The notes under the pieces: generated by a model
Seen by the model: the letters and a program-made list of their open reading frames with translations, nothing else
What the model was told of the DNA's origin: nothing
Databases searched by the model: none
Translations under genes and position numbers: made by a program
Assembly: GCA_027490575.1 (NCBI GenBank)
Contig: JAIXXV010000014.1
Location: 1 to 57,382, forward strand
Direction: 5' to 3'
From: a bacterium
Lineage (GTDB): Bacteria > Patescibacteriota > Minisyncoccia > Phycocordibacterales > CAIZLB01
DNA length: 57,382 bases
Shown: positions 1,648 to 10,003 of the stretch, in pieces
How positions within the stretch are numbered: the first letter of the stretch is position 1
How the letters are laid out: each line of letters begins with the position of its first letter

Positions 1648-2418
1648 CTAATACCTCGGCACTCCCAAACTCTGAGTCTCCATTTGTATTTCATCAAACA
1701 AGCCTTCTTGGTGAGCGTCAATCGTGCCTTGCTTTACCAGCTCAAGCATTGCCAAAAAACTCACTATGACATGTACCCTCTCGCCTTTATCCAATGAACT
1801 CTTTCCACCACTGAAGTCTCTGAAGCTCATTCGCACCGCTGACTTTATACGTTCGGTCAATCTACCAATCATCTCCTCGAGACTCACAGTTTTTCGTACT
1901 AGTACTTTTGGTTCAGTTTTCGGTTTTGGTAATGATGTCAGTACCCGCCCTATCGCTTCAGTGATTTGTTCAAGTGTGATTTCTCTACTTGGTGCAAAGA
2001 TTGGTCCTATGTTTGATTTGAAGTTACCTTCGAAGCCTCCTCTTGGGAAAATGATTTTTTGTCCAAAAAGTTTTTGCACAGTAAGGCTGGCTTTTCTAAA
2101 TATCTCAAGCTCTTTCAAGCGACGTTCAAGGTCCGCAATATCTGTAGTTTCCTCTTCTGTAAGTGTCAGAGTTGGCAAAAGCGACTTTGCTTTTATCAAA
2201 AGAAGTGTTGATGCAATATATATGAACTGTGTTCTGTCACCTAGTGAATAGTCGGCAAGTCTGTTGATGTAGTTGATGTATTCATCAGTAACTTTTGCGA
2301 GCGAGATGTCGTTTATAAAAAGCTTTCTCTTTTCAATGAGCGTAAGTAGTAGATCGAGTGGTCCTTCAAAGACTTCGGTTTTGATGGTGAAGGTTGGTTT
2401 GGGTGCTGTTTGATCCAT
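1648..2418 (-). CDS. scpA: Segregation and condensation protein A (ScpA)
   Basis: ScpA is the kleisin that bridges the SMC heads and binds ScpB. The N-terminal signature FEGPLDLLLTLIEKRKLFIND (residues about 18-38) and the following ISLAKVTDEYINYI are characteristic. The C-terminal winged helix (VHVIVSFLAMLELVKQGTI, about residues 213-232) is the part that contacts SMC. The length of 256 residues is normal. The upstream region holds only AT-rich sequence with TATA-like boxes and no Shine-Dalgarno site. A divergent promoter for the structured RNA lies about 50 bases upstream. Confidence 0.92.
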   Translation of the reverse strand: MDQTAPKPTFTIKTEVFEGPLDLLLTLIEKRKLFINDISLAKVTDEYINYINRLADYSLGDRTQFIYIASTLLLIKAKSLLPTLTLTEEETTDIADLERRLKELEIFRKASLTVQKLFGQKIIFPRGGFEGNFKSNIGPIFAPSREITLEQITEAIGRVLTSLPKPKTEPKVLVRKTVSLEEMIGRLTERIKSAVRMSFRDFSGGKSSLDKGERVHVIVSFLAMLELVKQGTIDAHQEGLFDEIQMETQSLGVPRY

Positions 2419-2468: not shown

Positions 2469-2497
2469 TTGAAAGAATGTCCTTCTTATGATATATA
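2469..2497 (+). promoter_or_regulatory. Promoter of the 16S-like RNA gene
   Basis: TTGAAA at 2469-2474, a 17-base spacer and TATATA at 2492-2497 form a good sigma-70 promoter on the plus strand. The predicted RNA 5' end is near 2504-2505. Confidence 0.65.
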
Positions 2498-2504
2498 TAC
2501 CTTG

Positions 2505-2850
2505 CACTTTCATGTCAGACCTGAGAATCGGAATCGTCTCAGAAGTATGTCGGATTCTGGGCATAGAGGCTCGCCCTCTATTGTTTGCCAGATAACACGT
2601 GTCGGAGTACCAAATCGAAATGTGGTTTAGTAGGTATGGTACACACGCGGCCTATCAGCTTGTTGGTAAAGGGTTAGGAAGCCCGAGGTAACAGCTCACC
2701 AAGGCGACGAAGGGTAGCTTGGTCCAGTGAGGACCGGGCACGATATGTCTGAATGTTTGGGGTGTGTCCCTTGTCTCTATCACTTGAAAAAGAGCCACGG
2801 ATTAGATACCCGGGTACACGTAGTTCAAGATGAGACAAGGGTCTTTTTTT
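2505..2850 (+). ncRNA. Structured non-coding RNA carrying diverged 16S rRNA segments
   Basis: No credible reading frame covers this stretch, but it has its own promoter (2469-2497) and an intrinsic terminator ending at 2850. Three blocks match conserved 16S rRNA in the correct order: 2646-2667 (contains CGGCCTATCAGCTTGTTGG), 2685-2724 (contains GCTCACCAAGGCGACGA and GGGTAGCT) and 2799-2816 (contains GGATTAGATACCC, the 790 loop). The first two correspond to about E. coli 220-300 (helices 10-12), with 17 extra bases between them. The sequence at about 2590-2645 also loosely follows 16S. Everything between about 300 and 785 of 16S, and everything after the 790 loop, is absent. Other hairpins are CTGAGA/TCTCAG (2521-2542), ATAGAGG/CCTCTAT (2563-2581) and GTACC/GGTAC (2607-2642). 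It could be a functional rRNA-derived RNA or an rRNA relic. It does not match tmRNA, RNase P, SRP or 6S RNA signatures that I know. Confidence 0.7.
2768..2850 (+). terminator. Long-armed terminator of the 16S-like RNA
   Basis: A perfect 10-bp stem (CCCTTGTCTC at 2768-2777 with GAGACAAGGG at 2832-2841) is followed by TC and seven T. A second stem inside it (CTTGAA 2783-2788 with TTCAAG 2824-2829) encloses the copy of the 16S 790 loop. The hairpin therefore both ends the RNA and presents the 790-like loop. Confidence 0.75.
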
Positions 2851-2943: not shown

Positions 2944-3163
2944 ATAAATAATAAGAGTTCCTTGAAAGTTGGTTTTCCGCAGTCCTACAAACTTCTTCTG
3001 GTGGATTTTCTGAACAGTTTATTTATTGATATTTCACATATTTATAAATAAACTGGTCAGATGTCTTCCGTATGGTTGTACTTCTTGTCTAGTAGATCTT
3101 GTCACCTGTGATTTAAAGTCAAACAGCGTGAGCTTGTCCGCGAGACATTGGAGAATTCATAAG

Positions 3164-3583
3164 ATGAAAAAAGTTATCATACCAGCTGATGGTGTGCAGA
3201 GTGCGAATTTCAAAATGATCCGCCTTCAAAAAGGAGTGAGTCTTCTTCCTGAGGTCTCAGTGTGCATCACTGTTGATTCAGAGATGACATGCTTACTCCA
3301 TGTTAACTTCAGCGACAGAAGAGAGTCGATTGATTTATCACCTGAGAACTTGGTCTCCCTTTCTCAAAACGTAAGGGTCAACGCGGACATTAAAGCGGCT
3401 GATATTTTAAATCCACATCATATTGTTGAGCATCTCATTGCGGATGTTTACAACTTGTGCTGTGACCGAAGAGACTCTGGCTTCGAAATTTACCTTGTGG
3501 CGGCTCAAGGCGAGAACTTTCTCGTGGAGGACATATCAGTGCTTGTCGATAATGAGACGGCATCGAGGTTTTTGAAGTTCTAA
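3164..3583 (+). CDS. Orphan protein, 139 residues
   Basis: The frame is open from 3026, but the ATG at 3164 is preceded by TTGGAG, and the extra N-terminus would be unconvincing (cysteine-rich, no pattern), so I start here. The product begins MKKVIIPADGVQSANF and continues with alternating hydrophobic and polar residues (a beta-rich pattern), with no membrane segment or signal peptide. I do not recognise a family. It has its own promoter and terminator, and its base composition looks richer in G and C than the neighbouring synthetase genes. It is a single-gene transcription unit. Confidence 0.65.
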   Translation: MKKVIIPADGVQSANFKMIRLQKGVSLLPEVSVCITVDSEMTCLLHVNFSDRRESIDLSPENLVSLSQNVRVNADIKAADILNPHHIVEHLIADVYNLCCDRRDSGFEIYLVAAQGENFLVEDISVLVDNETASRFLKF

Positions 3584-8293: not shown

Positions 8294-10003
8294 CTACATT
8301 GTAGCAAGTTTGATATGGAAAGAAGATCCTTTGTCGAGGCCTGGTGAAGTTGCCCATATATCACCATGGTGAGCTTCTATGATTTCTTTGGCCACATATA
8401 AGCCAAGACCTGTACCGATGATATTTGTTTTTGAAGCATCTGGTGCACGAGTGAACTTTTGGAAGAGCTTAGGAATGACATCTGGATGTATTCCAACCCC
8501 GGTGTCTGAAACAACTAGTTCTAGGTACAATACATTGTCTATACCCGTAACTTGCTTAAGTTCAATCTTCACATTGCCTTTAGGCGTATATTTGATTGAG
8601 TTGTCTACTATATTGCTAATAACTTGGCGAATTTTTCCTTTATCTGCATTCACAATCCATTTATCAGGTTTAAAGTTTGCTGGTATTACTTTATATGAAT
8701 CCTTTTGTGGTGCTGTTAAAATACTATGTATGATACTTGGCTCATCTTCTTTTATATGTCGCTCAGCTGTTGTCGTGTAAGAAAATCCAAGACCTGTATT
8801 CAAAATCATTGGCCTAAAACTCTCAACCACCTCTTTAACAAGTTCCTCTAGGTTAAATATAGAAAAAGCGTATTGCATTTTACCTTGTTCTATACTAGAT
8901 ATGTCTAGATAGTCTCCTACTATAGTCACAAGGTTTTCTGTAGATTGGTAAATGGTTTGTACAGCCTCTTTTTGAGCCGGTGTAATATCACCAAAGTCAC
9001 CTTCAGATACCATCGATGAATAACCTTTTATGGTGGCAAGTGGTCCTCGTATTCTATGACTTGCAAGGGACACGAACTCTGATTTTTGTTCGTCTATCTT
9101 TCTAAGTTGCACATTCACATTTTCAAGATCCTCTGCTAGCTTCTCAATCTGATTTCTAGCCCTGATCTCTTGTCTAACACTTCTAACCAAAAACACTCCA
9201 ATGATAGTCGTAGGTATCAAAAGTACAAAGTTACCAATCTGCTCATTTCTAGTAGTGGATATGATTGCTCGAAGAAAAATAAAGAGCCAAAGTGTAAATG
9301 TGAAAAGCTCTACAGTTATAACCTTTGTATCAAAAAGCTTATGTCTGTATATACCGTAAAGCACAACCATCACAAGTATTAGACCAAATATAGGTCCTGC
9401 CCATATGTAAGAATAATTGTAAACTGGCAGCACCAGGTTGAACCAAAGACCAAAAACATATGCAAAACCTGAACCTTTTATGATAAATGATAATTGTTTT
9501 TTGATTGCCTTATCATTTATATTTCTATAATACGAAAGTATAAGATTTATATATGCCCAACATAGAAAGACAAATACTATTGAGCTAAAGGTCAGATATC
9601 CAAACATCGATATCTCAACTTTTTTTGGTGCAGACATTATTATGTCTTTGAGGATAAATCCTTCTTGATGTGCAATAGTCATTGCAAGCAAAGTTGTAGC
9701 TAGTACTACAAAAACCTGTGCAATTTTTGATTTTGGTTGTGAGCCTGGAAATGATAGTGTAAACAATAGAAAGAAACTTATAATTCCTATTGCAGCTATG
9801 TAGTAGATCTTGGCAAACCAAGAAGCCAATATCTCACTATCAGTTGATATAAAAAGACCAAGGCCTAGTGCCCAGAAAGATATAGACATGATCATTCCTG
9901 TATAACAAATAAAGTTAAAGTCTCTCTGACCCTTTATCATGTTGTAACTGATGTATGCAGTTACAATTGCTATTATGTATAAGAATATTGTTTCTGTACC
10001 CAT
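8294..10003 (-). CDS. Membrane sensor histidine kinase with seven-helix N-terminus
   Basis: The first 270 or so residues form about seven to eight hydrophobic helices, matching the 7TM region found at the N-terminus of some histidine kinases. The phospho-acceptor helix SEFVSLASHRIRGPLATIKG is near residues 305-325. The ATPase domain has the N box (ISNIVDNSIKYTPKG), the G1 box (VSDTGVGIHP) and the G2 box (GTGLGLYVAKEIIEAHHG). Compared with the next gene it carries about 40 extra residues inside the ATP-binding domain (region of SIIHSILTAPQKDSYKVIP). No response regulator is encoded nearby, so its output partner must lie elsewhere. The start has no Shine-Dalgarno site. Confidence 0.9.
   Translation of the reverse strand: MGTETIFLYIIAIVTAYISYNMIKGQRDFNFICYTGMIMSISFWALGLGLFISTDSEILASWFAKIYYIAAIGIISFFLLFTLSFPGSQPKSKIAQVFVVLATTLLAMTIAHQEGFILKDIIMSAPKKVEISMFGYLTFSSIVFVFLCWAYINLILSYYRNINDKAIKKQLSFIIKGSGFAYVFGLWFNLVLPVYNYSYIWAGPIFGLILVMVVLYGIYRHKLFDTKVITVELFTFTLWLFIFLRAIISTTRNEQIGNFVLLIPTTIIGVFLVRSVRQEIRARNQIEKLAEDLENVNVQLRKIDEQKSEFVSLASHRIRGPLATIKGYSSMVSEGDFGDITPAQKEAVQTIYQSTENLVTIVGDYLDISSIEQGKMQYAFSIFNLEELVKEVVESFRPMILNTGLGFSYTTTAERHIKEDEPSIIHSILTAPQKDSYKVIPANFKPDKWIVNADKGKIRQVISNIVDNSIKYTPKGNVKIELKQVTGIDNVLYLELVVSDTGVGIHPDVIPKLFQKFTRAPDASKTNIIGTGLGLYVAKEIIEAHHGDIWATSPGLDKGSSFHIKLATM

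Follow-up and report, generated by a model that had tools for sequence, protein, structure and literature searches.

A candidate noncoding RNA in a very small bacterial genome carries a 16S helix 11 module that recurs in phages

Pieces of 16S rRNA lie in a noncoding gap of a very small bacterial genome, between scpA and an orphan gene, and the question that this locus raises is whether they are the remains of a 16S gene or part of an RNA gene with a role of its own. We analysed the window, meaning the whole 57,382-nt stretch of DNA that contains the gap. A sequence-only reading of the locus had described a free-standing RNA without a coding frame, and indeed no convincing ORF was found in the gap. 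The features on which the argument turns are the following, in window coordinates.

1648-2418, minus strand: scpA, divergent from the noncoding unit
2469..2497, plus strand: possible promoter TTGAAA-17-TATATA, read from the sequence and weak
2505..2841, plus strand: proposed noncoding RNA unit, its ends inferred from promoter-like and terminator-like sites
2592..2648, plus strand: putative helix 7-like arm, TAACACGTGT ... ACACACGC, with an inner GTACC/GGTAC stem in predicted folds
2652..2714, plus strand: 16S helix 11 mimic with kink-turn strand GGCGACGA, from a covariance model (R1) match and the SW score
2668..2684, plus strand: 17-nt insert AAAGGGTTAGGAAGCCC in helix 11, which can fold as a GGGUU/AGCCC hairpin inside the helix
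2717..2739, plus strand: 9-bp hairpin GCUUGGUCC AGUGA GGACCGGGC in the position of 16S helix 12, from MFE and constrained folds
2768..2848, plus strand: terminator-like 10-bp stem (2768-2777/2832-2841) with T-run, from sequence and MFE, enclosing the 790-loop hairpin
2799..2816, plus strand: match GGATTAGATACCCgGGTA to the 16S 790 loop (h24), 17/18 to E. coli 16S
3164..3583, plus strand: orphan gene (139 aa), inside the same inserted stretch as the RNA unit

The clearest 16S-like part of the unit is positions 2646-2739, which correspond to the helix 11-helix 12 (h11-h12) module. Positions 2646-2714 read as CGCGGCCTATCAGCTTGTTGGT, the insert and then GAGGTAACAGCTCACCAAGGCGACGAAGGG; this is 16S helix 11, kink-turn strand included, split by 17 nt. 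Aligned to E. coli 16S, positions 2590-2745 gave an SW score of 40 against a shuffle maximum of 28 (0/200), and the h11 core at 2658-2710 scored 37.2 bits (E=3.2e-9 over 86 kb) with R1, a covariance model made from viral and prophage h11 copies only, so that the proposed h10-h12 block split by 17 bases is real. Through this R1 match the window RNA carries the viral h11 core with the kink-turn strand GGCGAYGA, and it likewise has the h11 sequence and structure of the Rfam 16S family RF00177, though not the full-length, four-domain 16S that the family describes. The h12-position hairpin comes after h11 at 16S spacing, and a 16S-like fold containing h11, the insert hairpin and h12 costs only 0.2 kcal/mol relative to the MFE (-83.8 versus -84.0 kcal/mol). 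The second hairpin right after h11 and a closing helix are predicted for this copy by the energy model only. For the whole unit the folding z score is -2.2; since the opposite strand, at z = -3.4, is unusually stable too, folding energy alone tells little. An h11 pattern that includes the insert matched once in the window and nowhere in IMG/VR; this insert is unique to the window copy and might disturb protein binding.

Beyond this module, the most distinct 16S piece is the 790 loop in the last third of the unit. The sequence-only reading had placed it at 2799-2811, where GGATTAGATACCC is exact, and the likeness continues through 2816; the segment GGATTAGATACCCGGGTA scored 31 against a shuffle maximum of 29 (0/200). 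In the MFE, G-C pairs close its 9-nt loop AUUAGAUAC, which sits within the terminator-like hairpin; the 10-bp stem of this hairpin, as first described, is present in both sequence and MFE. TCTTTTTTT comes directly after the stem, and the loop of this hairpin exceeds the length handled by the terminator scan used. The sigma-70 promoter of the sequence-only reading fared less well, because the TTGAAA-17-TATATA at 2469-2497 can be read by eye but was not among the sites listed by a consensus promoter scan of the window, leaving it as weak evidence. A helix 7 analogue, TAACACGTG..CACGCG at 2592-2648, is also weak, with a 12-mer test that was not significant (3 mismatches, reached in 18.5% of shuffles), and the 5′ part of the unit scored no higher against 16S than shuffles did. 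The remaining universal 16S segments were not found in the unit, which agrees with the view that most of 16S is missing. The 16S covariance-model check that had been suggested came out negative: an Rfam scan of the window gave no match and the SSU model was silent even at E<=1, probably owing to the insert in h11.

An exact GGATTAGATACCC, 17/18 identity to E. coli 16S and a closed 9-nt loop are what one would look for if the unit were a decoy for IF3 or a platform factor, in which the 790-loop hairpin is functional and h11 only stabilises the RNA. We regard this as very improbable. None of the viral representatives tested has the loop, its pattern has no match in IMG/VR, and the combined h11 and 790-loop pattern at this spacing had 0 matches in the other genome contigs searched, as did an h7-truncated pattern; both the insert in h11 and the extra 790 loop have been seen in the window copy only. 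Given these absences, the loop cannot be the shared function. The earlier suggestion of a decoy or ribosome-regulating RNA is thus weakened in its IF3 part, as the piece that recurs in viruses is h11, the uS17 site, rather than the 790 loop with its 0 matches in IMG/VR.

To place the unit in its genome, we compared the locus with the resident 16S gene and with related genomes. The genome, which to judge from its size probably belongs to the candidate phyla radiation, has an intact 16S elsewhere (contig C30), whose h11 reads TTGGTAAGGTAATGGCTTACCAAGGCTATGA, while the h11 of the window RNA has the general bacterial form GGCGACGA. Since the resident h11 differs, the window RNA is not a copy of the resident 16S, and for the same reason an assembly chimera with the resident gene, which had been named as a possible refutation, is unlikely. 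The aspS-scpA junction varies among congeners, with ~100 nt in G001 and other ORFs in G003-G005, which marks the RNA unit as a lineage-specific insertion at this junction. No second copy was found in its own genome or in 147 relatives, where the best matches of the unit fell in the h11 and 790 parts of 16S genes and the others were short chance matches. The orphan protein downstream has no Pfam or PHROGs family and only weak matches, in 4 of the 147 relatives. A 12/12 consensus promoter, TTGACA-18-TATAAT with TG preceding the second hexamer, lies at 2914-2943, ~220 nt 5′ of the orphan gene, and a long hairpin occupies 3010-3066 in the presumed 5′ UTR of that gene.

With model R1, more than one h11 match occurred in 3 of 380 genomes from the phylum, the window genome among them. 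A survey of the class gave extra h11 matches in several genomes, and most of those inspected proved to be true 16S at the ends of contigs. Two further observations were made in genomes of the class. A CRISPR array in one (L245, G208:C2, reverse strand, about 9278-9460; also L236) holds a self-matching spacer, identical to that genome's own 16S helix 11, and another genome (L237 2000-2130, G319:C1) has an intergenic hairpin that resembles h11 but lacks the kink-turn strand.

These comparisons bear on whether the unit is simply a nonfunctional, decayed fragment of a foreign 16S gene, left as a pseudogene or a chimeric insertion. A sequence of 16S origin or mimicry, a single copy among the relatives searched and a weak promoter would all suit such a fragment. 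Decay would not be expected to keep the pairing of h11 and h12 while most other 16S was lost, nor to yield an insert that folds back into the helix, in a sequence unlike the resident 16S and an architecture that matches many covarying viral elements. We consider decay improbable. The fold, the loss of most of 16S, the difference from the resident gene and, above all, the independent viral elements described below support the free-standing RNA that was originally proposed.

The h11 module turned out to be widespread in unrelated viruses. In a blastn search of phage records, a stretch of the window matched unannotated gaps of Streptomyces phage Omar and E. coli phage ECOO78, in addition to true 16S. 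A 45-nt h11 query found matches in unannotated or hypothetical-protein stretches of further phages: Klebsiella phage SBP, Yersinia phage 30.14, Shewanella phage Y11, Streptomyces phage Stella, the T4-like phages Muldoon, VP8, PS2 and 4S, the Schitoviridae phage Pokken and its relatives, and Edwardsiella phages. E. coli prophages also carry the module, without other 16S landmarks. A pattern scan of IMG/VR returned 76 contigs with h11, none of which had other 16S landmarks at 16S spacing, and more than 100 after further patterns. Over the same 2.9 million contigs, control patterns for the 790 and 530 loops gave 0 and 3 matches, respectively, with one of the three in an rRNA and two in apparently coding stretches. 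As these controls are nearly absent, contamination by 16S genes does not account for the viral h11 matches. Two IMG/VR matches (L096 and L101) that lack the upstream half of h11 were discarded as chance, and two contig-end fragments that resemble true 16S (L156 and L190) were excluded from the alignment.

The viral copies are held to the constraints of h11. Of the pairing cells in 32 distinct copies, 97.7% hold standard pairs, changes on both sides occur in 5 of 11 pairs, and 23 double-change cells were counted against a shuffled mean of 4.8 (0/500), a covariation signal that was abolished by sliding the register. The kink-turn strand GGCGACGA is nearly invariant in these copies. Because true 16S varies likewise, this covariation does not imply an origin independent of 16S. 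The covariation check proposed at the outset therefore divides: the window copy has no homolog in the 147 relatives, but the module it carries covaries in the viral set. The copies in Omar and Stella align to positions 106-311 of the Rfam SSU model with 68 and 85 bits, both above the gathering cut-off, and the match consists of h7-h11-h12 with h8-h10 removed. Near the h11 element of Omar (L063 1717-2957), four type II hammerhead ribozymes lie between small genes.

The module is set in several unlike scaffolds. A compact group of ~83 nt (GUUGUGGUG ... CACCACA) has h11 and one more hairpin, a lambdoid group is closed by UUUGG-GCUGGC ... GCCAGC-ACCAAA, a third group by GUUUGGAU ... AUCCAAAC, and T4-like phages have h11 within 450-600-nt noncoding stretches. 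Rfam 15 has no family for the scaffolds in the phage loci scanned, and models of GOLLD, ROOL, OLE and HEARO matched neither the window nor the phage loci. The genomic settings vary as well. Lambdoid copies lie in the leader ahead of recT/exo genes, one copy is found between Q and holin, the SBP copy occupies a ~480-nt stretch with its own promoter-like and terminator-like sequence, opposite to the flanking structural genes, and some copies, including T4-like ones, lie within phage tRNA clusters. A general tie to phage tRNA genes was dropped, at 3 of 39 clusters against 2.4 expected.

The lambdoid leaders and the copy between Q and holin would fit a cis element, in which a ribosomal protein, recruited by h11 while the leader is being made, controls the gene downstream or transcription elongation, in the manner of ribosomal-protein leaders or phage antitermination. 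As a general account we give this poor odds. The window unit ends at a terminator-like hairpin ahead of the next gene, and that gene encodes an orphan protein instead of a ribosomal protein; the SBP copy has a terminator-like sequence after it and neighbours on the opposite strand, and the T4-like copies sit among tRNA genes.

One phage RNA scaffold, GUUGUGGUGAAUGCGCAGGCUGAUGCGC ... AAGCCGGAGAUCAGCACCGGCCACCACAAC, is common to 173 phage records, most by their outer parts only. In the seven examples examined (L193-L199: mEp460, ZCKP8, KlebP_265, ST4, KP591P1, 6991 and RCS47; about 1460-1680 in each), other arms replace h11, as if the middle arm were exchangeable. Two constant hairpin loops of this scaffold, GGCUGAU and AUCAGC, are complementary, as in a kissing interaction, and sub-threshold matches to the STnc100 sRNA occur near it (L196 940-1048 and L199 2193-2313; 38-39 bits, E about 2e-5 to 4e-5). 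Phage tRNA clusters can counter anticodon nucleases. The RNAs might serve as decoys or antitoxins, aimed at a factor of the host or of a competitor that cleaves or modifies 16S rRNA at h11, with h11 as one of several exchangeable baits, for which the swapped arms of the scaffold and the copies within tRNA clusters both speak. However, the other arms are unlike rRNA: against the rrnB operon they gave no convincing match and one borderline 23S-like stretch (3/200 shuffles). We know of no defence factor that targets h11, and we think this explanation unlikely.

We favour a different reading, to which we assign a probability of about 0.42: that the window RNA is a trans-acting noncoding RNA gene of phage-like design that presents 30S protein sites, chiefly that of uS17. 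Its structure and class are well supported. The RNA, transcribed from the 2505-2841 unit, would be a multi-helix molecule in which an h11 arm with its kink-turn, almost identical to the helix of 16S, is followed by the h12-position hairpin, with perhaps an h7-like arm and a closing helix of its own. In the E. coli 30S subunit, S17 contacts h7, h9 and h11 (PMC3359968). The Streptomyces phages and, with less clarity, the window have kept helices 7, 11 and 12, and the conserved features, the kink-turn strand and a paired stem, are what an h11-reading protein would need. Since the retained pieces include S17 contacts and conserved h11 features, we propose uS17 binding. The h11 arm would then titrate newly made uS17 in competition with nascent 16S, or the RNA may otherwise disturb or tap small-subunit assembly, or exploit uS17. 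The 790 loop in the terminator hairpin could serve as a further mimic of the 30S, specific to this locus. The window genome has a gene for uS17; no bS20 was detected in the assembly, which is 93% complete. The decoy mechanism is a tentative part of the proposal, and we hold it a little less firmly than the reading as a whole. The unit may have been acquired from, or be shared with, mobile DNA; no phage link was found at the window locus, where the orphan neighbour has no PHROGs match. We lean somewhat more, at still slightly less than even odds, towards the broader statement that a widespread, mostly viral class of free-standing, h11-imitating RNAs captures a small-subunit protein, most likely uS17, or an assembly factor, with the window locus as a chromosomal member that adds the 790 loop.

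Should this hold, phages would be making repeated use of RNA copies of a defined ribosomal-protein site, a host-takeover route absent from Rfam 15 and the literature searched. An RNA of about 83 nt would then offer a small, testable way into the question of whether viruses act on ribosome assembly, and a natural ligand or antagonist for the making of the 30S subunit. That literature contained no account of phage RNAs that mimic rRNA, and the word 'rRNA' is absent from the main text of a 2025 review of phage small RNAs; as the papers searched were mostly open ones, an earlier description is possible. This suggests that the viral class is undescribed, a judgement and not a proof. The first claim that no such RNA had been described agrees with Rfam 15 and these papers, but has to be qualified by the resemblance of the window RNA to a broad group of viral elements.

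Compared with known systems, the window RNA is closest in sequence to h7, h11 and h12 of bacterial 16S (RF00177, about 106-311), with which it shares the h11 sequence, the kink-turn strand and the order and spacing of h11 and h12. Unlike 16S, it is free-standing and ~340 nt long, lacks most of the rest, and has an insert in h11 and its own closing helix. With the phage and prophage elements (Omar, Stella, SBP, ECOO78, Muldoon, Pokken and the lambdoid copies) it shares a free-standing h11 with kink-turn, and with their compact groups also a second hairpin after h11 and a non-16S closing helix, whereas it differs from them in being chromosomal (aspS-scpA) and in having the 17-nt insert and the 790 loop. 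Leaders of ribosomal-protein mRNAs mimic rRNA, as does the uS8 site on spc mRNA (PMC10931766), and are likewise RNAs outside rRNA that imitate a ribosomal-protein binding site, but they act as cis leaders of ribosomal-protein genes, while the window RNA is a stand-alone unit beside an orphan gene. AgvB, a phage-encoded RNA mimic or sponge that imitates the mRNA targets of an sRNA (PMC12197685), offers a parallel as a phage-borne RNA that works by molecular mimicry, though in its case no rRNA is involved.
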